From NCBI GenBank assembly GCA_030746295.1, contig JASLMY010000115.1, positions 1 to 14,758 of the forward strand: a DNA stretch of 14,758 nucleotides. Reading direction: 5' to 3'. Under the pieces are notes generated by a model. The model ran no database searches. It worked only from the letters and a program-made list of their open reading frames with translations, and was not told the origin of the DNA. The stretch's first letter is position 1. Each line of letters starts with the position of its first letter. Source of the stretch: Alphaproteobacteria bacterium (GTDB lineage: Bacteria; Pseudomonadota; Alphaproteobacteria; GCA-2731375). Below, piece after piece: positions 2,988-14,758 of the stretch. Both the position numbers and the translations under genes were made by a program.

Positions 2988-3161
2988 ATGAGCGATCAAT
3001 CCCAGGCAGGCCCGTCGTCGGAGGAAGAAGAGCGCATCCCCTTCTTTCAACGGGTTCTCGATAACCCGTTTCTATTGCTGTTCATAGGCGTGGCCATGCC
3101 GGCGTGCCTGTACGTGATTTGGGGGATCATGGAGGTTGCCCAGATCCCGATAGCGAAATAA
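2988..3161 (+). CDS. 57-residue single-helix protein, putative small subunit of the heme-copper enzyme
   Basis: A short gene with ATG at 2988, preceded by AGGAG at 2976-2980 (seven bases), and TAA at 3159-3161. The product begins with an acidic soluble stretch (MSDQSQAGPSSEEEERIPFF), then has one hydrophobic helix (about residues 28-51, FLLLFIGVAMPACLYVIWGI) and a short tail ending in AK. It lies 37 bases before the CuA subunit gene and directly behind the FNR-like box, so it is probably the first gene of that operon. Small one-helix subunits encoded next to subunits I and II are known in B-type oxidases (subunit IIa of the ba3 enzyme), and this may be an equivalent. That role is inferred from size, topology and position only; I see no sequence signature. 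Confidence 0.7.
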   Translation: MSDQSQAGPSSEEEERIPFFQRVLDNPFLLLFIGVAMPACLYVIWGIMEVAQIPIAK

Positions 3162-3198: not shown

Positions 3199-3744
3199 AT
3201 GGCGATAAGTCCCCCGGAAGAACGGATTTGGTGGAAGGAACCCTTACGGCGGGCCGAGATCGTGTGGATCGCGATCGGCTTCGTCTGGGGCCTGGTGATG
3301 TTCTTCACCATGGTCACCTGGCATGTCACGGGCAAGCAGAACCTGTCGAACGAGGCCTACCGGATCGACCCGGAGGTGTTTGCGGCCCGTACCGAGGCCA
3401 TGACCGAGAAATACAAGGTGCGCGAGGAAACCGATTCGGGAATCCCCGTGGCGCACCCGCCGCCCGGCAGTGACGTCTACATGCTGGGGCGGCTTTGGGA
3501 GTGGTGGCCGATACTGGAGCTGGAAAAAGACCAGACCTATCGCCTCCATCTTTCGTCGATGGACTGGCAGCACGGGTGGTCCCTGCAGCCGCAGAACATC
3601 AATCTCCAGATCCACCCCGGCTACGACATGGTGGTGACCATCACGCCCGACAAAGCGGGCGAGTTTACCGTCGTCTGCAACGAATTCTGCGGCGTCGGCC
3701 ATCACACCATGCTGGGCAAGATCTACGTCGTCGAGAAGAAATAG
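3199..3744 (+). CDS. Heme-copper oxidase/NO reductase subunit II with CuA site
   Basis: A 181-residue membrane-anchored cupredoxin that takes electrons from a periplasmic donor and passes them to subunit I. One N-terminal helix (about residues 20-42) anchors a periplasmic domain. The CuA ligands are complete: H125 in the SSMDWQHGW segment, then C160, E162, C164, H168 and M171 in CNEFCGVGHHTM. The short single-helix form resembles subunit II of B-type (ba3-like) oxidases rather than the two-helix form of aa3 oxidases. It starts at 3199 behind GAGGGAGAGG and ends nine bases before the subunit I gene. Because subunit I lacks the oxygen-reductase tyrosine, this protein is likely the NorS-like CuA subunit of an sNOR-type NO reductase. 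That assignment follows from the partner and is not shown by this protein alone. Confidence 0.93.
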   Translation: MAISPPEERIWWKEPLRRAEIVWIAIGFVWGLVMFFTMVTWHVTGKQNLSNEAYRIDPEVFAARTEAMTEKYKVREETDSGIPVAHPPPGSDVYMLGRLWEWWPILELEKDQTYRLHLSSMDWQHGWSLQPQNINLQIHPGYDMVVTITPDKAGEFTVVCNEFCGVGHHTMLGKIYVVEKK

Positions 3745-3753
3745 GGGGCGGTC

Positions 3754-5451
3754 ATGGCAAGCGCAGCAATTTTCAGGACCTGCCCGGAGACGGGCTTACG
3801 CGTACACTCTCAGGCGGAGGCCCTGATCAAGGCCAATGCGGTGGTCGCCATCGTCTTCCTCGCCATCGGCGGCCTTTTCGGCCTGTTGGTGGCGCTGACG
3901 CGCTGGCCGGCGGTGCATATCCTCGATGCCGAACTCTTCTATCTGGCGCTGACGGCGCACGGCGCCGATGCCCTGCTGGTCTGGATCATCTTCTTCGAGG
4001 TGGCGATCCTCTACTTCGCATCGGCGATCCTGCTGAACTGCCGCTTGGCGGCGCCGTGGGTCGCGTGGCTCGCCTTCGTCTTGATGCTGGTCGGCGCGCT
4101 GGTGGCGAACGTCGCCGTGCTACAGGGCGAGTCGAGCGTGATGTTCACCTCGTACGTCCCGATGAAAGCGGCACCGCACTTCTATCTAGGCCTGATCCTG
4201 TTCGCGGTGGGGGCGCTGCTCGCCTGCTTCGTCTTCTTCGGAACGCTGGTGATCGCCAAGGACGAGAAGACCTATGAAGGCTCGATCCCACTGGTCACCT
4301 TCGGCGCCGTGGCGGCGGCGATCATCGCCGTCTTCACCATCGCCTCGGGCGCGATCATCCTGATCCCGACGCTTCTGTGGTCGCTCGGCTACATCGCCAA
4401 CATCGATCCGCTGACCTACAAAGTGGTCTGGTGGGCGATGGGCCATTCCTCGCAGCAGATCAACGTCTCGGCCCATGTCGCGGTCTGGTACGCGGTGGCG
4501 GCCATGGTGCTGGGCGCCAAGCCGTTGTCGGAGAAGGTCAGCCGCATGGCCTTCCTGTTGTACATCTTGTTCCTGCAGTTGGCCTCGGCGCATCACTTGC
4601 TGGTCGAGCCCGGGTTGAGCTCCGAGTTCAAGATCTTCAACACCTCCTACGCTCTCTATTTGGCGGTGTTGGGCAGCATGATCCACGGCCTCAGCGTGCC
4701 CGGCGCCATCGAGGCGGCGCAGCGGCGGCGCGGCTTCAACAACGGCGTCTTCGAGTGGTTGAGGAAGGCGCCGTGGGGCAACCCGGCCTTCTCGGGCGTG
4801 GCGCTGTCGATCGTGATGTTCGGGTTCCTGGGCGGCATTTCGGGTGTCGTCATGGGCACCGAGCAGCTGAACCTGATCATGCACAACACCCTCTATGTGC
4901 CGGGACATTTCCACGGCACCGTGGTGGCCGGGACGACGCTCGCCTTCATGGCGGTGACCTATCTCGTGGTGCCGTTGATCTTCCGGCGCGATCTGATCTT
5001 GAAGGGCTTGGCCAAGTGGCAGCCCTACCTCTTCGGCATCGGCGTCGCCGGCATCTCGGTCTTCATGATGGGCGCCGGCACGCTGGGCGTGGCGCGGCGC
5101 CATTGGGACATGACCTTCTCCGATGCCCCGATGAGCTTCGAGTACCCCGCTGCCGCCTTCATGATGATGGGGCTGAACGGGATCAGCGCCATCATGGCGG
5201 CCGTCGGCGGAATCCTGTTCATCGTCATCATCGTCGGCAGCGTGCTGTTCGGCAAGCCGCGGGACGCGGCAACGATCCAGGCGGCGCCCGCCATCGGTAC
5301 CGGCGGCGCCGACGCGGTCGCCAGCTACGGCGGCGAGGACACGGTCAAGCTGCCGGGCACGATCACGCTGGTGGCGGTCTTCCTGATCTCCTTCATCCTC
5401 TACTACTACGTCAACTGGAAGTACCTGTCCGAGATCTGGCCGTTGAGCTGA
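3754..5451 (+). CDS. Heme-copper oxidase superfamily subunit I, putative sNOR-type NO reductase (annotated families: cytochrome c oxidase subunit I)
   Basis: A 565-residue protein with about 12-14 hydrophobic helices. Metal ligands can be placed by motif: H69 (TAHGADALL) and H387 for the low-spin heme, H385 for the high-spin heme (YVPGHFHGTV), and H231, H280 and H281 for CuB or FeB (WWAMGHSSQQ; SAHHLLVEPG). The spacing and the HHLLVEPG and VPGHFH motifs are closest to B-family (ba3-like) enzymes. The Tyr of H-x3-Y in helix VI, cross-linked to a CuB His in A- and B-family oxygen reductases, is replaced by Gln235. In helix VII, where C-family enzymes carry theirs, the only Tyr (Y270) lies ten residues before the His pair. 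Loss of this Tyr is a mark of NO reductases in the superfamily. The neighbours CuA subunit and SenC match norSY-senC (sNOR) clusters reported in ammonia oxidisers. A divergent oxygen reductase is the alternative. The gene starts behind GGGGGCGG. Confidence 0.9.
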   Translation: MASAAIFRTCPETGLRVHSQAEALIKANAVVAIVFLAIGGLFGLLVALTRWPAVHILDAELFYLALTAHGADALLVWIIFFEVAILYFASAILLNCRLAAPWVAWLAFVLMLVGALVANVAVLQGESSVMFTSYVPMKAAPHFYLGLILFAVGALLACFVFFGTLVIAKDEKTYEGSIPLVTFGAVAAAIIAVFTIASGAIILIPTLLWSLGYIANIDPLTYKVVWWAMGHSSQQINVSAHVAVWYAVAAMVLGAKPLSEKVSRMAFLLYILFLQLASAHHLLVEPGLSSEFKIFNTSYALYLAVLGSMIHGLSVPGAIEAAQRRRGFNNGVFEWLRKAPWGNPAFSGVALSIVMFGFLGGISGVVMGTEQLNLIMHNTLYVPGHFHGTVVAGTTLAFMAVTYLVVPLIFRRDLILKGLAKWQPYLFGIGVAGISVFMMGAGTLGVARRHWDMTFSDAPMSFEYPAAAFMMMGLNGISAIMAAVGGILFIVIIVGSVLFGKPRDAATIQAAPAIGTGGADAVASYGGEDTVKLPGTITLVAVFLISFILYYYVNWKYLSEIWPLS

Positions 5452-5464
5452 GGCGGAGACGAGG

Positions 5465-6406
5465 ATGACGGCACCCGACGGAATGCGGCGCGGAACGCCA
5501 CCGCCCGCACCCGTCGGGTCGGGGGGAGCAGCAGGGGTCTCTACGATGCGCTGGGGGAAAGAGCTCTACGCAGTCTTCAAGCTTCGGATCGGCATCGCCA
5601 TCGCGGTCACCGCAGTGGCCGGCCTGGCGGTGACGCCGGGGCCGGCGCCGACGGCTTGGCAGGTCGTGGCCGTGGCTTTGGCAGTCTTGTTGTCAGCGGC
5701 CAGTGCCGGCGCCTTGAACCACTATATCGAGCGCGATCTCGACGCCTTGATGCCGAGGACGCGCGGGCGGCCCTTCGTCACCGGGGTCTTTCGGCCCGGG
5801 CCGCTCTGGCTGACGGTGATCTTCCTGATGCTCTTGGTCGCGGTGGTCATGGCCGGACTGGCGGTCAACGCCTGGGTCGCGGTCTACACCTTCCTCGGTG
5901 CCTTCTTCTATGGCGTCGTCTACACCATTTGGCTGAAACGGCGAACCTGGCTCAACATCGTGCTGGGTGGCCTCTCGGGCAGCTTTGCCGTGCTGGCCGG
6001 CGCGGCGGCGGTCGACCCCGCGATCCCGGCGGCGCCGATGCTGCTGGCGGTGGTCCTCTTCCTCTGGACGCCGCCGCACTTTTGGAGCCTGGCGATGCGG
6101 CTCGACGCGGAATATGCCCAGGCCCGGGTGCCGATGCTGCCGGTCGTCATCGGCTCGGCCGCGGCGGCGCGCGTCATCCTGGCGCACACCGTGGCTCTGG
6201 TCGCGCTGTCGCTGTTGATCGCGGTACTGGGGCTCGGCTGGATCTATCTCGCCGCTGCCGCCATCGGCGGGGGCTACTTCATCTATCGCAGTGTGCAATT
6301 GGTGCGGCGTCCCGGCCCCGAGGCGGCGGCAAGGAACTTTCACGCCTCGCTCGTGCAGCTGGGGCTGCTGTTGATCGGCGCCCTCGCCAGCACGGGCGGG
6401 CTCTGA
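5465..6406 (+). CDS. ctaB: Protoheme IX farnesyltransferase (heme O synthase)
   Basis: A 313-residue UbiA-family membrane prenyltransferase that converts protoheme IX to heme O with farnesyl diphosphate. Diagnostic motifs are present: NHYIERDLDALMPRT (residues 85-99, the Asp-rich diphosphate/Mg site), YTIWLKRRTWLN (153-164) and WTPPHFWSLAM (201-211). About eight to nine helices are visible after a Pro/Gly-rich N-terminal tail of about 27 residues. The start at 5465 has GGAG eight or so bases upstream; an internal Met at residue 28 (MRWGKELYAVFKL) is nearer the usual family start. The stop overlaps the next start in TGATG. No heme A synthase (CtaA) is seen here, so the heme-copper enzyme of this cluster could carry heme O, or the gene may serve another oxidase. 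Its presence beside a putative NO reductase is notable because classical cNOR uses only heme b. Confidence 0.95.
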   Translation: MTAPDGMRRGTPPPAPVGSGGAAGVSTMRWGKELYAVFKLRIGIAIAVTAVAGLAVTPGPAPTAWQVVAVALAVLLSAASAGALNHYIERDLDALMPRTRGRPFVTGVFRPGPLWLTVIFLMLLVAVVMAGLAVNAWVAVYTFLGAFFYGVVYTIWLKRRTWLNIVLGGLSGSFAVLAGAAAVDPAIPAAPMLLAVVLFLWTPPHFWSLAMRLDAEYAQARVPMLPVVIGSAAAARVILAHTVALVALSLLIAVLGLGWIYLAAAAIGGGYFIYRSVQLVRRPGPEAAARNFHASLVQLGLLLIGALASTGGL

Positions 6407-7248
6407 TGGCGCCGGCCGGGCCGCGCCTCGCCCTTCTCGCTATCGCCGCTGCCGTGTTTTGGTTGGGTGCGCCTGGCGCCCTCAGCGCGCAAGGCGTCGC
6501 GGTGGCGGGCGATCCCGACCGCGCCCTCGAGGTCAGCCAGGCGGCGATCGGCCGCCGTCTCGACGGCTATCGTTTCCTGGACACCGAGCGGCGGTCGGTC
6601 CAGATCGACGACTTCCGCGGCAAGCCCCTGGTGGTCAACCTGATCTATACCGCTTGCGTGCATACCTGCCCGCTGATCACCCAGACCCTGCTGGACGTCG
6701 CCGACGGTGCCCGCGAGGCCTTGGGCGAGGACAGCTTCAATATCGTCACGATCGGTTTCGACGCGCCCAACGACACGCCTCAAATGATGCGCGCCTTCGC
6801 CCGGACCCAGGGATTGGACCTCGACAACTGGCAATTCCTCTCCGCTGACAGCCGCACCGTCGAGCGCTTGACCGAGACCCTCGGCTTCGTCTATTTCCCC
6901 TCGGCGAAAGGCTTCGATCATTTGGCGCAGCTCAGCGTCATCGATGCCGAGGGTCTGGTCTATAGGCAGGTTTACGGCGAGACCTTCGAGGCGCCGTTCC
7001 TGGTCGAGCCGCTGAAGGATCTGGTCTTCGGTCGGCAGGGCAACTACACCAGCGTCGAGGGTCTGATCAATCGCCTCAAGCTCTTCTGCACGCTCTATGA
7101 TCCCGCGGCCGGACGCTACCGCTTCGATTATTCGGTCTTCATCGGTGCCGGTATCGGTATTCTCATACTCTTGGTCTTGGGGACCATTTTGGTACGGGCG
7201 ATCTTGCGCGAGCGGCGCGGACGCGAGGCGGTATCGTCCACGGGATAG
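6406..7248 (+). CDS. SCO1/SenC/PrrC-family copper chaperone with C-terminal membrane helix
   Basis: A 280-residue thioredoxin-fold copper chaperone that loads or reduces the CuA site of subunit II. An N-terminal signal-like segment (residues 6-28, ending GALSAQ) is followed by the fold with the copper site C84-x3-C88 (YTACVHTCPL) and H172 (KGFDHLAQL), the classical SCO triad. Beyond the domain comes an extension with a further Cys (C228, LKLFCTLYDPAAGRYRFDYS) and a second membrane helix (about 244-266), ending in a basic tail. The usual SCO protein has a single N-terminal anchor and stops at about 200 residues, so this C-terminal anchor is a variant. The gene is translationally coupled to ctaB (TGATG, one-base overlap). 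In norSY-senC clusters the SenC protein occupies the same position. I am sure of the family; the partner is inferred. Confidence 0.92.
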   Translation: MAPAGPRLALLAIAAAVFWLGAPGALSAQGVAVAGDPDRALEVSQAAIGRRLDGYRFLDTERRSVQIDDFRGKPLVVNLIYTACVHTCPLITQTLLDVADGAREALGEDSFNIVTIGFDAPNDTPQMMRAFARTQGLDLDNWQFLSADSRTVERLTETLGFVYFPSAKGFDHLAQLSVIDAEGLVYRQVYGETFEAPFLVEPLKDLVFGRQGNYTSVEGLINRLKLFCTLYDPAAGRYRFDYSVFIGAGIGILILLVLGTILVRAILRERRGREAVSSTG

Positions 7249-7314: not shown

Positions 7315-8907
7315 ATGGAATACGTGAGGCGGCCGCTTCGCAGCCTATTCCTATGGCTCGAGGCCGGCCTCAACTACTGTTTCGGAACCAGGCTGAACCC
7401 CTTCGCGCAGCTCGGCGCGCTGGGCTTCTTCTTCTATTGGATCGTCGCCGTCAGCGGCATCTACATCTACGTCTTCTTCGACACCGGCATCTCCGAGGCC
7501 TACGACTCGATCGAGTACATGACCAACGAGCAGTGGTATCTGGCCGGCGTCATGCGCAGCCTGCACCGCTATGCCTCCGACGGCCTGATCGTGGTGATGC
7601 TGCTGCACATCGCCCGCGAGTTCGCGTTCGACCGCTACCGGGATTCGCGCTGGTTCACTTGGATCACCGGCGTGCCGATCCTGTGGCTCGTCTACGCCGC
7701 CGGGATCGGCGGCTATTGGCTGGTCTGGGACAAGCTGGCCCAATATATCGCCATCGCGACCACGGAATGGCTCGATTGGCTGCCGATCTTCGGCGAGTCG
7801 ATCGCGCGGAACTTCCTCTCGCCGGCGCATCTGGACGACCGCCTCTTCACCCTGTTGATCTTCCTGCACATCGCCGTGCCATTGATCCTGCTTCTCGTGC
7901 TCTGGATCCACCTGCAACGGATCGCCAAGGCCAAGTACAACCCGGACCGCTGGTTGGCGATCCCGACCTTCGTGGTCCTGATGCTGGTCTCGATCCTGAA
8001 GCCGGCGACGAGCCAAGGGCCGGCCGATCTCGCGACGGTGCCGGCGGAAGTCGGCCTCGACTGGTTCTACCTGGCGGCCTATCCCTTGCTCGACATCCTG
8101 TCCGCCGGCGAGGTCTGGGCCATCGCCTTCGTCCTGACGCTGGGGCTGATCCTGCTGCCCTTCCTGCCGCGCAAGCGCTTGGGGGCGCCGGCCGAGGTGG
8201 CCTTGGCCAGCTGCAACGGCTGCGGGCGCTGCGTTCTCGACTGTCCCTTCAACGCCATCTCGCTGCAACGGCGTAGCGACGGCCGGCCTTTCGAGATGGA
8301 GGCCAAGGTCGAGCCCAAGCTCTGTGTCTCCTGCGGCATCTGCGCCGGCGCCTGTCCGACCGCGATCCCCTTCCGCCGCGCCAGCGCGCTGGTGCCGGGG
8401 ATCGAGCTGCCCGACGAGACGATGCACGAGCTGCGCGAGCGCTGCCACAAGGAGGGCGAGGCGCTGTCTGGTCCTGCCAGAGTGTTGCTCTTCGGCTGCC
8501 GGAACGGCGCCGATGTCGACCGATTTCGCGGCGATGGCGTCGGTGTCGTCAGGCTGCCCTGCATCGGCATGCTGCCGCCGTCCTTCATCGACTACGTGCT
8601 GAGCCGCGGCGTTGCCGATGGCGTCGTCCTGGCCGGCTGCCGTGTCAATACCTGTCACCACCGGCGCGGCGTGATCTGGTCCGAGGCGCGGATCGCCGGC
8701 GAGCGGGACCCGCATCTGCGCGCCCGGGTACCGCGCGAGCGGTTGCTGACTTGTTGGGCTGCGGCGACCGACCGGCGCAAGGTCGAGCGCGAGCTGACCG
8801 AGTTCCGCGAGCGCCTGGCAGCGATGGCCGAGCGCCAAGACGACGCCGGCCCGCCGCCCGAGGCGGCACCTTCCGAGCCCATGCCGGTCGGAGGTGACGA
8901 TGACTAG
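7315..8907 (+). CDS. Cytochrome b (diheme) fused to 2[4Fe-4S] ferredoxin and MvhD-like domain
   Basis: A 530-residue three-part protein. Residues about 1-215 form a cytochrome b/b6-like four-helix core with two bis-His heme sites: H84 and H98 in one helix, H185 and H199 in another, both pairs 14 residues apart as in bc1/b6f cytochrome b. A further helix (about 262-284) leads to a bacterial-type ferredoxin with C300-x2-C-x2-C-x3-C310 and C337-x2-C-x2-C-x3-C347. The C-terminal part resembles MvhD, the [2Fe-2S] subunit linking hydrogenase to heterodisulfide reductase: LLFGCRNGAD (C395), VRLPCIGML (C416) and VLAGCRVNTCHH (C442, C447), with one Cys where typical MvhD has CxWC. An acidic Pro-rich tail ends it. 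The arrangement could move electrons between quinone, hemes and FeS centres, possibly to or from the adjacent NO-reductase-like enzyme. No Rieske protein or cytochrome c1 is nearby. GGGGAGG sets the start. Confidence 0.88.
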   Translation: MEYVRRPLRSLFLWLEAGLNYCFGTRLNPFAQLGALGFFFYWIVAVSGIYIYVFFDTGISEAYDSIEYMTNEQWYLAGVMRSLHRYASDGLIVVMLLHIAREFAFDRYRDSRWFTWITGVPILWLVYAAGIGGYWLVWDKLAQYIAIATTEWLDWLPIFGESIARNFLSPAHLDDRLFTLLIFLHIAVPLILLLVLWIHLQRIAKAKYNPDRWLAIPTFVVLMLVSILKPATSQGPADLATVPAEVGLDWFYLAAYPLLDILSAGEVWAIAFVLTLGLILLPFLPRKRLGAPAEVALASCNGCGRCVLDCPFNAISLQRRSDGRPFEMEAKVEPKLCVSCGICAGACPTAIPFRRASALVPGIELPDETMHELRERCHKEGEALSGPARVLLFGCRNGADVDRFRGDGVGVVRLPCIGMLPPSFIDYVLSRGVADGVVLAGCRVNTCHHRRGVIWSEARIAGERDPHLRARVPRERLLTCWAAATDRRKVERELTEFRERLAAMAERQDDAGPPPEAAPSEPMPVGGDDD

Positions 8908-9403
8908 CCTTGCTCGCTATCTCGGTCAGGGCCTCGCCTATCTGTTGCTGGGCCTGGCCATCGCCTATTTCTCGGACTCGCCGGTCTACACCCATTTCTC
9001 GCCCGAGATGGCACAGATCAAGCTCAACATCCTGCACGGCGCCAAGCCGGCCGGGAAATGCCGGCGCCGGACCGCGGCCGAGCTGGCCGAACTGGCACCC
9101 AACATGCGCAAGCCCTTCGACTGTCCGAGAGGTCGCTTGCCGGTGCAGCTCGAGCTCGAGATCGACGGCGAGCAGGTCTTCGCCGGTGCCCTGCCACCGA
9201 CCGGGATCGCCGGCGATGGTCCTTCGCGGGTCTATCGCCGTTTCACGGTTGCCCCCGGGCCGCATCGAATCGCCGTCCGCATGCGCGATACGGCGCGCGA
9301 GGATGGCTACGACTACGAGCGCGCCACCGAGGTGACGCTGATGCCGAAGCAGAATTTCGTCGTCGACTTCAAGGCGCAGGCCGGCGGCATCGTCTTCCGC
9401 TAG
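8900..9403 (+). CDS. Membrane-anchored periplasmic protein of unknown function, two cysteines
   Basis: A 167-residue protein with one N-terminal helix (about residues 9-24, LAYLLLGLAIAYF) and a periplasmic domain rich in beta-strand patterns (VQLELEIDGEQVF, RVYRRFTVAPGPHRIAVRMRD, FVVDFKAQAGGIVF). VAPGPHRIAV recalls PEGA-like or other immunoglobulin-like folds, but this is only a pattern. Two cysteines (C54 and C75) could form a disulfide or hold a metal. ATG at 8900 has GGAGG at 8889-8893; the GTG at 8894 is too close to that site. The gene overlaps the preceding fused cytochrome b gene by eight bases, so the two are translationally coupled and likely function together. I do not recognise a family. 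Confidence 0.8.
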   Translation: MTSLARYLGQGLAYLLLGLAIAYFSDSPVYTHFSPEMAQIKLNILHGAKPAGKCRRRTAAELAELAPNMRKPFDCPRGRLPVQLELEIDGEQVFAGALPPTGIAGDGPSRVYRRFTVAPGPHRIAVRMRDTAREDGYDYERATEVTLMPKQNFVVDFKAQAGGIVFR

Positions 9404-9438: not shown

Positions 9439-9834
9439 ATGGCGCTGATCGACTGGAGCGACAATTTCGAGACCGGGATCGAATCCCTCGACTTCGAGCA
9501 CCGCGAGATGATCGCGCTTCTGAACGAGCTCGCGGCGAGCATCTCGGCCGAGAGCACGAGGGACGCGATCTTGGACTTTCTGGGCGAGGTCTACGCCAAT
9601 ATCTCGGCCCATTTCGCGCTCGAGGAGCGGGTCATGCGGGAGAACCGCTACGCCGGCTATCAGGCCCACAAGGACGATCACGAGCGGCTGTTGGACGAGC
9701 TTCGCGAGATCATGGATCGCACCGAGACGGAGCCCGAAGCCGCCATCCGCGCGGCGCTTTCCGAGCAGTTGAAGCGTTGGTTCATGGTCCATTTCCACGA
9801 GCAGGACGCCCACCTGCACGGCCTTATGGCCTGA
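9439..9834 (+). CDS. Bacteriohemerythrin
   Basis: A 131-residue single-domain hemerythrin, a four-helix bundle with a non-heme di-iron site that binds O2 reversibly and, in some members, NO. All seven expected ligands are present: H21 (FEHREM), H58 and E62 (ISAHFALEE), H77 and H81 (QAHKDDHE), H118 and D123 (VHFHEQD). No signal peptide is seen, so it is cytoplasmic. Length and the opening MALIDWSDNFETGIESLDFEH are typical of bacteriohemerythrin. It lies 35 bases after the anchored protein on the same strand and closes the run. A role in buffering O2 or NO for the preceding respiratory enzyme, or in protecting cytoplasmic FeS centres, is plausible but inferred. The start is the ATG at 9439; a poor purine site (GGGGAAAATG) precedes it. 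Confidence 0.93.
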   Translation: MALIDWSDNFETGIESLDFEHREMIALLNELAASISAESTRDAILDFLGEVYANISAHFALEERVMRENRYAGYQAHKDDHERLLDELREIMDRTETEPEAAIRAALSEQLKRWFMVHFHEQDAHLHGLMA

Positions 9835-9956: not shown

Positions 9957-10667
9957 CTACTCCTTGGCCCAGGGCACGTCCTTGTGGACGAGGTTGAAGT
10001 GGCATTGGATGCAGGTCTTCTCGCCCCGCTGCTGGTGGCGTTTGATCTTGGCGAACCACTTGCTCTCGGTCTTGTGGCAGGTTTTGCACTTGGCACTGTT
10101 CTCCGCCATCATCTGCTTGCGCGCCTTGGTCGCCAACTCGATGCGCAGGCTCTCCCATGTCGGGATGTCGCGCAGACTGTTAGAGATCGAGTGGAACGGG
10201 CTCTCGCCGATCGTTCCTTCGTTCACGTAGAAGAACTTCCAGGTCAGGATTTCGCGAACGCTGTGTGGGTTATGACAGCCCAGGCAACCCGGCCTGACGT
10301 CTCGGTCGTTGTCGTAGTGGGCCGATTCCCGATACTCCTCGAAGGGATAGGCGTGACATTCGGCGCAGCCGACGGTGACGTTGAAGCTCCCGGGATCGAA
10401 GGCCTTGACGGGTTTGAAATCCTCGACCGATTCGCTCAAGGGGCCGGCGGGCTGGTACTCGGCGACGTCGACGAAAATCTCGTGACAGGAGGTGCAGATG
10501 CTGATTCTGTTGAAGCGGCCGTGACTCCAGCCGCCGACGGCGAGGACCACGATCAACAGAAACACACCGCAGACGGCCGATGCCCAGAGGGCGAGCTTCT
10601 TCATCGGCGTCGTCGCGATGATCGTGCCGATCTGCAGTTTGCTGGTCAGTTCACCAAGCTTCGACAT
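9957..10667 (-). CDS. NapC/NirT-like multiheme cytochrome c with five CxxCH motifs
   Basis: A 236-residue membrane-anchored c-type cytochrome. One N-terminal helix (about residues 25-46) is followed by a periplasmic domain with five heme-binding motifs: CTSCH (58-62), CAECH (101-105), CLGCH (128-132), CKTCH (194-198) and CIQCH (219-223). NapC/NirT/NrfH proteins usually hold four hemes and oxidise quinol for periplasmic reductases; five motifs in a protein of this size is closer to TorC/DorC-like or pentaheme variants. The start MSKLGELTSK at 10667 is chosen because the longer frame overlaps the preceding molybdoenzyme gene. The gene lies 29 bases downstream of the molybdopterin subunit and is last in the minus-strand operon, so it probably exchanges electrons with that enzyme or with a soluble partner. 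Its direction of electron flow is unknown. Confidence 0.88.
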   Translation of the reverse strand: MSKLGELTSKLQIGTIIATTPMKKLALWASAVCGVFLLIVVLAVGGWSHGRFNRISICTSCHEIFVDVAEYQPAGPLSESVEDFKPVKAFDPGSFNVTVGCAECHAYPFEEYRESAHYDNDRDVRPGCLGCHNPHSVREILTWKFFYVNEGTIGESPFHSISNSLRDIPTWESLRIELATKARKQMMAENSAKCKTCHKTESKWFAKIKRHQQRGEKTCIQCHFNLVHKDVPWAKE

Positions 10668-10696
10668 GCCGTCTCTGCCGCTCCGTTGTCCGACGC

Positions 10697-13057
10697 TCAA
10701 GCCTGGCCGAGAAGCTTCTTGTAGATCTCGAGGTGCTTGGCGTTGTTGGCCTCTACATCGCCGTACCTGTCGCCCGTCTTCGCCGGCAGAACGGTCACCA
10801 CGGTGTCGTTCCAGGCCTGCACGCCGCTTTGCGGGTCGATGTTGATCGGGATGATGTCGTTGGGATTGACGCCGGCATCCCGCCACCAGACGTTGTCGTC
10901 GATGTCGGCGTCTTCCTGCGACTTGGCCGGCAGCGAGATGCGTGCGTCCGCGTCGGCCTGGGCTACCCGCCCATAGGCGGTCCGTCCCACCGAGGTCGAA
11001 ATGCCGACGACACGCGGGTGAATGCCGTGGGTCAGCCAGGCCCGGGTGACCAGATAGCCGGCATCGCTGGTGACACGCACGAGCTCGCCGTCCTCGATCC
11101 CCAGCTCGCGTGCCCCCTGCCGGTTTATCCAGAGCGGGTTGGAGTGCCAGATCTCGGCGAGATATTTCAAGTTGGTCGTCATCGACAGCGTGTGGTAGGC
11201 GACCTTGAAGGTGGCCAGCACGAACTCACCGTCGACCAAGGCGGCATGGCGCGGATTGGCGCTCCAGGCCGGCGCGGCGAGCTCGATCTTGCCCGAGGGC
11301 GTCGGGAACCCCGATGCGATATGGGCGCCGTACTCCGCCTCGAGCGGCGCCCCCTTGCGGATGATCTGGCGAGTGTTGGTATCGATCTTGCCGTAGTTCG
11401 GCCAGACGCCTTTTCTGATCTTCTTGTACTTGCCCTTCAACGCCGGGGTCGCGGAGACTTCCTGCTTGACCCAGTCCTTAGCGTTCTTGAAGGCCCAGTA
11501 TTGCTTGATGCCGCGGCTGCCGTCAGGGTCGATGGTCTCGGCGATCTTCTTCAGCGTCTCGCGCGCATCCCTCGCCTTGCCGCGCGGCTTCACGGGCGGC
11601 AGCGTCATGCTCGCCCAGGGGTGCAGCGCGGTCGGACTGCTGGCCAGGTCGTGCCGCTCCACCGCCACCACGTCGGGCAGGATCATATCGGCCAGCTCCG
11701 CGCTCTCGCTCATGAAGGGGCTGAAGTCGACGAGGTAGGGTATCAGTTTCTCGTCCTTCAGGACCTCGCGCCACAGGCTCGCGGCCGGAGAGCTGTAGGC
11801 CGGATTGCTCATGTGGTTCAGCAGAACCGCTACCTTACGGGCCCCCGCCTTGACCTCGAAGGGGAAGGCGTAGTTGTAGTGCAGCTGCTTCGGCCCGCCG
11901 CCGGGTTGTTCCGGCGCCGGTGCCGGCGGCCGGACATCGAACTGCCGCGGTAGGCAATAGCCGCCCTCGATCTCGATGTTGCCGGTGATCGCGGCGAGCA
12001 GAAGACAGGCCGACTCCGCGTCGATGCCGTTGCGATGCAGACTGACGCCGTTGAGGCTGAAAATGGTCCCCGGCTTCGTCTTGGCGAACTCGACCGCGAT
12101 CTGTCGGAGGGCCTTTGCGGGCACCCCGCTCGCCTCTTCCGCCATCTCCGGCGTGAATTGCTTCAGATCCTCCGCCAGCCGGTCGCTGGAATAACTGGTC
12201 CACTCGTCAATGAAGGCCTTGTCCGCCAGCCCCGACCCCATGATCACGTTGGCCATGGCGAGCGCAATGATGCCGTCGCTGCCGGGGAAGACCGGGAACC
12301 ACTCGTCGCTGCGCCCGGCGGTGTTCGACATGCGCACCTCGAAGGTGACCATCTTCAGCCGGTTGTTGACGACGCCATCGGTCAGGCGCTGCGCCAGGGG
12401 CAAGGCCGTTTCCATGATATTGGCGCCGAAGTTCAGCACATATTTCGTCTTCTCGAAGTCGGGATACATGACCGGTACGCCGAGCGCCTGGCGCAGTGCG
12501 GCCTGCTTGGGGATGCAGCCGACGCCCGGGATTCGGCTGCGGATGACGGAGCCGGAACCGATGGCGTTCATGAAGCGCAGGCTGCCGCCGTCCTTGAAGC
12601 CGCCTTCGTTGAGGTGGATCGTGTCGGGGTCGTCGAGGGCGTCCGAGATCTTGCCCGCCACCTCGGCGATGGCCTCGTCCCAGCCGATCTCCAGCCACTT
12701 GCCCGAGCCGCGCGCGCCGACCCGCTTGCGCGGTGAGAGAATCCGGTCCGGATCGGAGGCGGCGAAAAAGGCCGACAGCCCCTTGGCGCAGAACTTGCCG
12801 CGGGTCGCGATATGGTCGGGATTGCCCTCGGTCTTCAGGATCTCGCCGTCCTCGGCAAAGCTGTAGCCGCCGTCGAAATAGGGGCACATGGTGCAGAGCA
12901 GCGCGTTCCGCTCGCGCGGATGGAAGGTTCGGATCTGGTGGAAGTCCTGGCCGCCGAGTTTCAGCTCCATGCCCTGGGTCAAGTGCGGATAGGTGGCGGC
13001 AGCGGCGGCCGCGCCGGCACCGAGGATCATGAAGTTGCGTCTGTGGACCTTCACCAT
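10697..13057 (-). CDS. Molybdopterin oxidoreductase catalytic subunit (DMSO reductase family, CISM type)
   Basis: A 786-residue molybdenum bis-MGD enzyme with an N-terminal twin-arginine signal (VHRRNFMILGAGAAAAAA), so the catalytic site is periplasmic. The FeS motif reads C55-x2-C58-x3-D62-x27-C90: the spacing is canonical but the third cysteine is Asp. C181 (IPGVGCIPKQAALRQ) is the best candidate Mo ligand from its place before the YPDFEKTKYVLNFGAN segment. The C-terminal dinucleotide-binding domain contains HSNPLWINRQGARELGI and ends with NPNDIIPINIDPQSGVQAWNDT. The overall pattern fits the broad PsrA/PhsA/TtrA/SoeA group; the substrate (a sulfur or arsenic oxyanion, or another) cannot be assigned. 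ATG at 13057 sits nine bases after GAGGGG; a GTG at 13063 is possible but too close to that site. It follows the NrfD gene by 13 bases. Confidence 0.9.
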   Translation of the reverse strand: MVKVHRRNFMILGAGAAAAAATYPHLTQGMELKLGGQDFHQIRTFHPRERNALLCTMCPYFDGGYSFAEDGEILKTEGNPDHIATRGKFCAKGLSAFFAASDPDRILSPRKRVGARGSGKWLEIGWDEAIAEVAGKISDALDDPDTIHLNEGGFKDGGSLRFMNAIGSGSVIRSRIPGVGCIPKQAALRQALGVPVMYPDFEKTKYVLNFGANIMETALPLAQRLTDGVVNNRLKMVTFEVRMSNTAGRSDEWFPVFPGSDGIIALAMANVIMGSGLADKAFIDEWTSYSSDRLAEDLKQFTPEMAEEASGVPAKALRQIAVEFAKTKPGTIFSLNGVSLHRNGIDAESACLLLAAITGNIEIEGGYCLPRQFDVRPPAPAPEQPGGGPKQLHYNYAFPFEVKAGARKVAVLLNHMSNPAYSSPAASLWREVLKDEKLIPYLVDFSPFMSESAELADMILPDVVAVERHDLASSPTALHPWASMTLPPVKPRGKARDARETLKKIAETIDPDGSRGIKQYWAFKNAKDWVKQEVSATPALKGKYKKIRKGVWPNYGKIDTNTRQIIRKGAPLEAEYGAHIASGFPTPSGKIELAAPAWSANPRHAALVDGEFVLATFKVAYHTLSMTTNLKYLAEIWHSNPLWINRQGARELGIEDGELVRVTSDAGYLVTRAWLTHGIHPRVVGISTSVGRTAYGRVAQADADARISLPAKSQEDADIDDNVWWRDAGVNPNDIIPINIDPQSGVQAWNDTVVTVLPAKTGDRYGDVEANNAKHLEIYKKLLGQA

Positions 13058-13070
13058 CGTCACTGTCCCC

Positions 13071-13979
13071 TCAATAGAAGGTCTGCATGTACTGGCCGCC
13101 CATGACCCACCAGATCCGCATCCCGTAGACGCCGAAGCAGACCATGTAGGCTGCCAACAGCACGAAGGTCTTCCGCCGCTTCAGGGGCGTGACGAGAATG
13201 AAGAACGGAATCAGCAGGCCGATCACCACCTCCATCCAGACATAGGGGAAGCGGAAGACGCCCATCAGCACCGCGTCGTGGGCCAGCGCCAGGCTGGCGC
13301 TGCCGTAGATCGACTGCAGGAATTCGAGGAACAGCAGGAAGGCATCGAAGACGAGGCCGTACATCATGTACTGGGCCATCTCGTTGATCAGCGCCCAGTC
13401 GATCCGCTTCTCGGGTGGCATCACCAGGTTCCTGAGCCAGAGGATCAGGATCAGGAGGCCGATGCCGGAGATGAAGGCGCCGGTCAGGAACAGCAGCGGC
13501 GCGAGCGCGGTGTGGTTCAGGAATCGTCCGGGGTTGAGCTCCATGACGACGCCCGTGTACCAGTGCGTCGACAGCGCCAGCACGATGGCGATGATGCCGA
13601 AGATCTTCGCCCAGGTGACGTTGTTCCTGAGGACGAAGAAGGTGTAGATGATCATCGAGATCGGATAGGTCAGGATCAGCACGGTGCCCCAGGACATCGG
13701 CCCCGTGGCATGCCAGTAGCCGGGCAGCAGCAGGTAGATGAAGCGCACCGGCTTGCCCAGATCCCAGATCAGCAGGATCGGCACCAGCAACAGCATGATG
13801 ATCGCCGTCACCGAGGCGGTCATCGCCAGCGGCTTGTAGCGCTGGATCCCGAAGACCCAGCCGAAGCTGGAAATCACGAACGAGCCGGCGCTGGCGCCGA
13901 CCAGCCAGAAGTAGATGGAGATCGAGGTTCCCCACGCGATGTGGTGGAAAACGTTTTGTATGACGACGCTGTCTTGCAC
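13071..13979 (-). CDS. NrfD/PsrC-family membrane subunit
   Basis: A 302-residue integral membrane protein with about eight or nine helices and no cofactor motif. It is the quinone-reacting subunit of CISM complexes. Family marks are IWDLGKPVRFIYLLLP (71-86, with D73 and R79 at the likely quinone side), GPMSWGTVLIL (93-103) and MELNPGRFLNHTALAPLLFLTGA. The only suitable start is the GTG at 13979, with a weak ribosome site; the gene begins 16 bases after the ferredoxin subunit stop and may depend on coupling. The stop is 13 bases before the molybdopterin subunit start. Together with its neighbours it should connect the quinone pool to the periplasmic molybdoenzyme through the four-cluster ferredoxin subunit. 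Confidence 0.92.
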   Translation of the reverse strand: MQDSVVIQNVFHHIAWGTSISIYFWLVGASAGSFVISSFGWVFGIQRYKPLAMTASVTAIIMLLLVPILLIWDLGKPVRFIYLLLPGYWHATGPMSWGTVLILTYPISMIIYTFFVLRNNVTWAKIFGIIAIVLALSTHWYTGVVMELNPGRFLNHTALAPLLFLTGAFISGIGLLILILWLRNLVMPPEKRIDWALINEMAQYMMYGLVFDAFLLFLEFLQSIYGSASLALAHDAVLMGVFRFPYVWMEVVIGLLIPFFILVTPLKRRKTFVLLAAYMVCFGVYGMRIWWVMGGQYMQTFY

Positions 13980-13995
13980 GGGTCAGGCGTCCGAT

Positions 13996-14758
13996 CTAGC
14001 CGAAGATGAAGATCCCGAAGGACTTGAGCACGTCTTTGGCCTTGTGCGGAATGCTGCCCATGAAGCCGAAGAAGTGCTCGGTGATCTGCCACATGGTCGA
14101 TTCCCCTTCGACGATGTCGGAGAAGGTGTCGCCCTTGTGGTTGCGTTTGAAGTCGTTGAACTCTTCGCGCAGCTGTCGGGTCCGGTTGGTATAGCTGTGC
14201 GGCTCGTCCATCATTTCCCACTCGGCGTCGATGTAGGAGACCGACGGGCTGGTGCCGATCTCGGGTTTCAGCACCGTCAGCCGTTCCCGCGCGGCCAGCT
14301 TCGAGACCTCGCTGTCGGGGTCGTTCATGTCGCCGAAGATCCTCGCGCCGCCGACGCAGGCCTGCACGCAGGCCGGGACCAGCCCCTTCTTGACCCGGTG
14401 GAAGCAGAAGGTGCACTTGTCCACCACCATGGTCGGCAGGTTCTTGTCCTTGCGTTTCGCCGGCAACAGATGGCGGGCGTTGTAGGGGCAGGCGACCATG
14501 CAGGTGCGACAGCCGATGCAGCGGTTGTAGCGCTGCAGGACGAAGCCGTCCTTGTGCTTGTAGGTGGCCTGGGTCGGGCAGTTGCGGACGCAGACCGGAT
14601 AGTCGCAGTGATTGCAGAGCCGGGGCATGAAAACCCGACGGGTCTCCGGATAGCGGCCCTTGTCGCCGACCTTGACCCAGGTCCGCCAGACCCCCAGGGG
14701 GACACCGTATTCCGCCTTGCAGGCGGCGACGCAGGACATGCAGCCGATGCATTTGCGA
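13996..14758 (-). CDS. Four [4Fe-4S] ferredoxin subunit of CISM complex (5' end outside window)
   Basis: The frame is open to the right edge, so the N-terminus is missing; about 253 residues are visible. Sixteen cysteines form four clusters in DmsB/PsrB/TtrB order: KCIGCMSCVAAC, then CNHC-x4-C-x3-C, CIGCRTCMVAC, and CTFC-x11-C-x3-C (numbering the visible residues: C3-C13, C48-C60, C80-C90, C115-C134). The protein passes electrons between the NrfD subunit and the molybdopterin subunit. After the last cluster comes a tail of about 105 residues without cysteines, longer than I expect for the simplest members, ending FGIFIFG. It contains HSYTNRTRQLREEFNDFKRN and a hydrophobic end that could rest on the membrane. 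It is the first visible gene of the minus-strand operon; its promoter lies outside the window. Confidence 0.93.
   Translation of the reverse strand, partial: RKCIGCMSCVAACKAEYGVPLGVWRTWVKVGDKGRYPETRRVFMPRLCNHCDYPVCVRNCPTQATYKHKDGFVLQRYNRCIGCRTCMVACPYNARHLLPAKRKDKNLPTMVVDKCTFCFHRVKKGLVPACVQACVGGARIFGDMNDPDSEVSKLAARERLTVLKPEIGTSPSVSYIDAEWEMMDEPHSYTNRTRQLREEFNDFKRNHKGDTFSDIVEGESTMWQITEHFFGFMGSIPHKAKDVLKSFGIFIFG

Follow-up and report, generated by a model that had tools for sequence, protein, structure and literature searches.

CbfD, a cytochrome b–ferredoxin–MvhD fusion protein encoded beside eNOR-type heme-copper enzymes in Proteobacteria

The eNOR class of heme-copper enzymes, defined by Hemp and Gennis, carries a cupredoxin subunit II and is marked by a glutamine that replaces the active-site tyrosine of subunit I, as stated in the covered sections of PMC8756737. 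A "degenerate B-family oxidase" of magnetospirilli, which also lacks the tyrosine and has an SCO gene in its operon, is described in the covered part of PMC6431628. The operon considered here has the glutamine and the cupredoxin subunit in common with the former, and the absent tyrosine and the SCO gene in common with the latter. Neither account, in the sections covered, mentions a cytochrome b–Fe-S partner. In the present operon this component is a single-chain fusion protein, named CbfD here.

The closest relatives of its individual parts are found in rather different complexes. With cytochrome b/b6 of the bc1 and b6f complexes CbfD shares the predicted membrane fold, the four heme histidines, and a PEWY-like motif on the P side. 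In contrast to these complexes, no Rieske or cytochrome c1/f gene was seen alongside it, its Qi histidine is replaced, the cysteine of heme cn occurs in only 4 of 117 sequences, and the chain continues into an Fe-S/MvhD C-terminus. Rieske/cytochrome b complexes with an NAD(P) oxidoreductase are known from anammox bacteria (Kustd1480-1485 and Kuste4569-4574), and a P-side nitrogen-oxide reaction has been proposed for Kuste4569-4574 (PMC12954380, sections covered). As far as these sections describe the anammox complexes, the common element is an Fe-S/flavin module on the N side that is attached to a b6-like cytochrome b. However, CbfD is one chain, its operon contains neither a Rieske protein nor a multiheme cytochrome c, its P-side partner would be the CuA-bearing eNOR, and its module is of the MvhD or the plant-ferredoxin/FNR type. 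An N-side NAD(P) oxidoreductase module is absent from the CbfD of the DNA analysed here; domains of this kind are fused to the cytochrome b of a paralog in at least 19 of 200 genomes. The order of ferredoxin and MvhD domains is that of the HdrA2 C-terminus (NCBIfam, stretch aa 293-507, 73 of 1100 bits), and the four cysteines of MvhD are kept. Unlike MvhD and HdrA2, CbfD is joined to a membrane cytochrome b, and no hydrogenase, formate dehydrogenase, or HdrBC was seen in the operon. In NCBIfam, the membrane part scores highest against the b-type cytochrome ExtP (100 of 290 bits), with ExtQ reaching 24.5 of 150 bits; both scores are far below the cut-off, and ExtP and ExtQ are, judged by their names, separate proteins of a selenite/tellurite operon.

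The stretch of DNA analysed, referred to as the window, comprises 14,758 nucleotides, and its features are collected in Table 1. An earlier note, based on the sequence of the window, had described CbfD as a fusion, within one chain, of diheme cytochrome b, 2[4Fe-4S] ferredoxin, and MvhD-like domains. Pfam assignments and invariant ligands bear this description out: the C-terminal part matches the MvhD profile, and structure prediction gives a cytochrome b/b6 fold for the membrane part, with two histidine pairs for a diheme arrangement. In an alignment of 80 sequences including that of the window, H84, H98, H185, and H199 do not vary, and the eight ferredoxin cysteines together with C395, C416, and C442 are constant (80/80), while C447 is present in 79. 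A relative of 764 residues (P0111) has a Pfam string that includes SCO1-SenC; it may be an SCO–CbfD fusion or an annotation artefact.

Table 1. Features of the eNOR–CbfD operon in the window
Feature	Position	Strand	Remarks
FNR/NnrR-type box TTGACCGTGATCAA	2885..2898		upstream of operon
Small protein, 57 aa, one presumed TM helix, possible extra subunit	2988..3161	+	
COX2-like subunit II with CuA ligands	3199..3744	+	Pfam COX2
Subunit I of the eNOR-type heme-copper enzyme, with Gln235 in place of the catalytic Tyr	3754..5451	+	COX1
CyoE-like heme O synthase	5465..6406	+	UbiA, E 7e-52
SCO/SenC copper chaperone	6406..7248	+	SCO1-SenC
CbfD (fusion; name used here): cytochrome b + 2[4Fe-4S] ferredoxin + MvhD	7315..8907	+	single ORF
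CbfD six-TM cytochrome b part: b6 plus two subunit-IV-type helices	7390..8184	+	TM number and sides inferred from model and b6/bc1 match
CbfD PEWY-like motif D249-W250	8059-8064	+	within cytochrome b part
CbfD 2[4Fe-4S] ferredoxin domain, eight invariant Cys	8209..8364	+	N-side by charge bias
CbfD MvhD/FlpD domain, Cys C395, C416, C442, C447	8494..8826	+	PF02662 above cut-off
orf7: membrane-anchored, presumably periplasmic beta-sandwich	8900..9403	+	model pLDDT 95
Hemerythrin, conserved diiron ligand candidates	9439..9834	+	last operon gene

The membrane part was compared residue by residue in 117 relatives of the MvhD type, 22 of a second type with a flavin module (FAD-type, described below), and 7 bc1-like cytochromes b. 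The heme histidines and D249-W250 are both present in 117/117 MvhD-type and 22/22 FAD-type rows. At the PEWY position the relatives mostly read [LIFVM]-D-W-[FY], so that the glutamate is replaced by aspartate, D and W are found in 139/139, and the leading proline is retained in one row only. The Qi histidine of bc1 is found in all seven bc1-like rows, and most CbfD relatives have S, T, A, or P there. At the b6f heme-cn position (position 32), cysteine occurs in 4/117 MvhD-type and 0/22 FAD-type rows. Because D249-W250 is constant and both the Qi histidine and the heme-cn cysteine are mostly absent, the P-side quinone site of CbfD looks kept and the N-side one lost. The four stretches presumed to face the N side (28, 9, 13, and 14 residues) contain 4, 3, 4, and 3 lysines and arginines, and the three presumed to face the P side (20, 39, and 35 residues) contain 0, 2, and 1. 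From this bias we infer that the C-terminal Fe-S part lies on the N side, in the cytoplasm.

The gene for CbfD is part of an operon with the order small membrane protein, cox2, eNOR subunit I, cyoE, sco, CbfD, orf7, and hemerythrin. The best PDB relatives of subunit I are ba3 oxidases. It has H231 followed by Q235, and Q234 and Q235 are constant in 63/63 aligned sequences; the CuA ligands of subunit II (H125, C160, E162, C164, H168, and M171) are constant in 60/60. By the glutamine at the tyrosine position and the CuA-bearing subunit II, this heme-copper enzyme is assigned to the eNOR-type B family, which sharpens the "NO-reductase-like" neighbour of the earlier note. The note had also reported no hydrogenase, Hdr, Rieske protein, or cytochrome c1, and the operon agrees: the scan of window proteins and the set of recurrent operon genes revealed no Rieske or cytochrome c1/f gene, and hydrogenase, formate dehydrogenase, and HdrABC are likewise absent from the recurrent operon genes of 80 loci. 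A cytoplasmic partner of the MvhD domain was not found in the operon. A frame of about 750 aa with ferredoxin and MvhD similarity occurs away from the operon in 3 of 10 genomes.

The conservation of this arrangement was assessed in 126 stretches that matched the search pattern. A relative was encoded in 110 of them, and the best 80 of these 110 were kept. Maritimibacter, Roseovarius, Magnetovibrio, and Bradyrhizobium are among the genera named as carriers. Homologues were found for orf7 in 77, sco in 73, HCO in 68 (including L078, with a distant HCO only), hemerythrin in 62, and cyoE and cox2 in 60 each, in a set in which many contigs end inside the operon. The 57-aa small protein has no Pfam match, and a pattern search picked up a small ORF resembling it ahead of cox2 in 64/90 loci. 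Of 100 loci inspected, 77 had at least 300 bp of sequence upstream of cox2, and 55 of these 77 have a TTGA-N6-TCAA box no more than 700 bp ahead of the gene, where 0.66 would be expected from shuffles and about 5.7 from the background density. The whole operon, in the same gene order, is also present on a Defluviimonas plasmid of 165 kb typed as non-mobilizable (L199, NZ_CP156080.1); consequently, it can reside on a plasmid. The putative diiron ligands of the hemerythrin (H21, H58, E62, H77, H81, H118, and D123) are constant in 61 sequences, and handling of O2 or NO by this protein is a guess.

Several further genes were observed around these operons. In the window, a convergent cluster on the minus strand (9957-14739) encodes a DsrO/TtrB-like Fe-S protein, an NrfD/DsrP-like membrane protein, a molybdopterin oxidoreductase whose N-terminus looks Tat-like by eye, and a NapC-type cytochrome. 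In L075, L148, and L156, homologues with 62-82% identity lie near the genes for CbfD or eNOR. Upstream, judged by eye only, there are the C-terminus of an AMP-ligase-like protein (11-901) and, within 424-1881, a fumarylacetoacetate-hydrolase-like frame, both apparently unconnected with the operon. A COX1-like protein of about 470 aa is encoded near orf7 or a second CbfD in L057, L063, L070, L071, L073, L074, L077, L078, and L080, with 23-27% identity to the eNOR subunit in these loci, and also in L182-L190, L192, L193, L195, and L197. Read by eye in some of these loci, it seems to lack the helix-VII CuB histidine pair.

The position of CbfD, mostly between sco and orf7, raises the question of a role in assembly. 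In such a role, CbfD would be a maturation factor that passes electrons across the membrane and keeps SCO/CuA copper and thiols reduced while eNOR is assembled. The sco product has constant C84, C88, and H172 in 67 sequences. The orf7 gene, which overlaps the end of CbfD by 8 nt, encodes a protein with constant P28, H46, R70, R77, R79, G102, and G120 and nearly constant Cys54 and Cys75 (alignment A2). It belongs to no Pfam family and to no NCBIfam family above cut-off, and comparison of its model with known structures gave no confident fold match. The constant H46 and nearly constant cysteines of orf7 and the SCO domain of P0111 are in line with a maturation role. However, P0111 is a single case that may be artefactual, and no assembly reductase is known to need a cytochrome b that has two hemes and a PEWY-like site. 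Overall, a maturation role is very improbable.

A different kind of evidence comes from the distribution of the genes across genomes. Ten genomes (G001-G010) were first reached via loci, and three of them served as centres of separate draws; each centre is a known operon carrier and was counted in the first and third draw. Within the ten, eNOR was found in nine, with eNOR and CbfD on different contigs in G005; in G008, CbfD lies at a contig start and no eNOR match was found in the genome. The first draw comprised 289 genomes of the class of G002 (Alphaproteobacteria), G002 included, with eNOR called at 71% identity or more. CbfD was present in 19 and eNOR in 18 of them, and all 18 were common to both. 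CbfD thus occurs in 18/18 eNOR genomes and in 1/271 others (Fisher 1e-27, kinship ignored); three further genomes of the 289 had only HCOs of 27-28%. In the nineteenth CbfD genome (G286) no eNOR was found, and its 9.8 kb contig ends within or after sco, close upstream of CbfD. In the same draw, nirS was found in 15/18 eNOR genomes and 4/271 others, again ignoring kinship. The second draw covered 299 genomes of the phylum of G003, in which CbfD was looked for only in HCO-positive genomes. Besides G003, eNOR was found in 29 genomes, once as a fragment (G504), and CbfD in 28 of these 29 and in 0/2 genomes with other HCOs only (kinship ignored). In the exception (G356), CbfD was not found and the contig ends after sco. 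The association seen in the earlier note in one neighbourhood consequently extends across genomes.

CbfD is not always directly downstream of sco. In L141, L142, L148, L150, L153, and L154 it is placed elsewhere: further along the contig of the eNOR operon in the genomes of L148 and L150, and on another contig in those of L141, L142, L153, and L154. CbfD therefore co-occurs with eNOR also where the genes are not directly linked. Two MvhD-type copies were seen side by side on one contig in L157 (G479), G417, and G504. This distribution bears on the possibility that CbfD is a ferredoxin or NAD(P)H:quinone reductase that feeds the quinone pool and is merely co-regulated with eNOR. The P-side quinone motif combined with an Fe-S or NAD(P)H module would suit such an enzyme, as would the FNR-type box ahead of the shared operon. 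Such a reductase should, however, also be expected without eNOR, yet it was found in 1 of 271 eNOR-negative genomes, and there at a contig break. A pool-feeding role is accordingly regarded as quite unlikely.

The cytoplasmic module is not the same in all relatives. Gallionella and its relatives have a second chain in which the same cytochrome b is followed by Fer2, FAD_binding_6, and NAD_binding_1 (Pfam, two proteins scanned). In the third draw, 200 genomes of the order of G001 with G001 counted in, 188 matched, and full-length FAD-type chains are present in at least 19 genomes among the matches listed. The other listed matches look like separate reductases because they cover the reductase part only. 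Of the 19 genomes, 18 have eNOR (two as fragments) and 16 also have a full MvhD-type copy. The genome G713 has an FAD-type chain and a fragment of a second cytochrome b, with no eNOR match. Two genomes (G591 and G662) have the FAD-type chain only, without an MvhD-type CbfD; in both, an eNOR operon with GHS(S/A)QQIN and CuA motifs carries it between sco and orf7, and in G591 the contig measures 3.96 Mb in a genome listed at 4.0 Mb. The membrane parts of 98 rows were used to calculate a maximum-likelihood tree: 70 of the 117 MvhD-type (chosen at random), 22 FAD-type, and six of the seven bc1-like sequences. The FAD-type forms one clade nested in the MvhD-type (97/67; 98% of bootstrap trees), with support below the double threshold of the tree tool (SH-aLRT 67). 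The simplest reading of this phylogeny is a single exchange of the N-side module during which the association with eNOR was retained.

Taken with the quinone sites, the modules also allow a bifurcation without a Rieske protein to be considered. In this scheme, quinol at the P side would give one electron to eNOR. The other would travel through hemes bL and bH into the cytoplasmic Fe-S/flavin module, where reduced ferredoxin or NAD(P)H would be made. The D249-W250 pair at the PEWY position in 139/139 relatives, the replaced Qi histidine, and the Fe-S or NAD(P)H module that follows on the presumed N side are consistent with it. NO has a very high potential, and its reduction offers ample driving force. 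A similar idea has been put forward for the Rieske/b complexes of anammox bacteria that have NAD(P) oxidoreductases (PMC12954380, sections covered). Nevertheless, no Rieske or cytochrome c1/f gene was seen in the operon, and no one-electron acceptor at the Qo site is known. Several hosts belong to genera of heterotrophs, which would presumably not need reverse electron flow. Bifurcation of this kind is rather unlikely. The boldest reading, a NO-driven quinol bifurcator without Rieske protein in which NO reduction would yield a low-potential reductant, is judged to be unlikely.

The reading preferred here, given about an even chance of being right, is that CbfD is a dedicated transmembrane relay or redox partner of proteobacterial eNOR, which mostly carries electrons from a cytoplasmic reductant to the P side. 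The cytoplasmic module, either 2[4Fe-4S] with an MvhD-type cluster or a [2Fe-2S]-FAD-NAD(P)H reductase, would exchange electrons with a cytoplasmic carrier. This is suggested by the module swap, in which a reductase of the NAD(P)H-flavin-[2Fe-2S] kind takes the place of the Fe-S/MvhD part. Electrons would pass between the module, heme bH, and heme bL, and the hemes would reach a quinone-type site on the P side, next to the CuA-bearing eNOR. The tight tie to eNOR, even where the genes are unlinked, points to eNOR or its quinone/cytochrome supply as the P-side partner, not to the general quinone pool. The usual direction would be from the cytoplasmic reductant via the hemes to the P-side quinone/CuA site, and eNOR would thereby be supplied with electrons by a route additional to bc1 and cytochrome c. 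The co-occurrence of nirS with eNOR and the FNR-type boxes agree with this reading. In 9/10 genomes inspected there is a separate bc1-like cytochrome b; consequently, eNOR could also draw on cytochrome c and CbfD could serve otherwise. The near-complete loss of the PEWY proline, the change of E to D, the lack of a partner for the MvhD domain among the operon genes, and the genomes in which eNOR or CbfD was found without the other (G356, G008, G286, and G713) also count against the relay.

The earlier note had called this unit undescribed, which holds only partly. The domain combination, the operon, and a RefSeq name are on record: RME88945.1, listed in an appendix domain table of PMC8756737 (sections covered), is one ORF with cytochrome b6, DMSOR-beta, and FlpD, and in the RefSeq record of Defluviimonas the eNOR appears as "cbb3-type cytochrome c oxidase subunit I" and CbfD as "cytochrome b N-terminal domain-containing protein". 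The covered sections of PMC11388526, PMC12569097, PMC8114936, and PMC10734462 mention eNOR and not a CbfD-like protein, and no description of CbfD as eNOR partner was found in the literature covered. The term is provisional, because Murali et al. 2024, the main eNOR paper according to PMC12569097, is outside this literature. Provisionally, then, CbfD is a widespread membrane protein that is apparently undescribed as a partner of eNOR.

CbfD bears on two questions about eNOR, namely what its physiological electron donor is and whether its NO reduction conserves energy. Since a cytochrome b accompanies eNOR almost constantly and carries a module that can be exchanged, both questions can be put to a direct test. 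The relatives also form a natural module-swap series for studying how Fe-S or NAD(P)H chemistry can take the place of the N-side quinone site in a rewired bc-type cytochrome b. Judging from the names that eNOR and CbfD carry in the one RefSeq record, the capacity for NO reduction may be undercounted. If the bifurcator reading were true, proteobacterial denitrification would hold a so far unseen energy-coupling step. The pairing of eNOR with CbfD, together with the module swap, suggests that a denitrification enzyme is connected to the cell interior in a new way.
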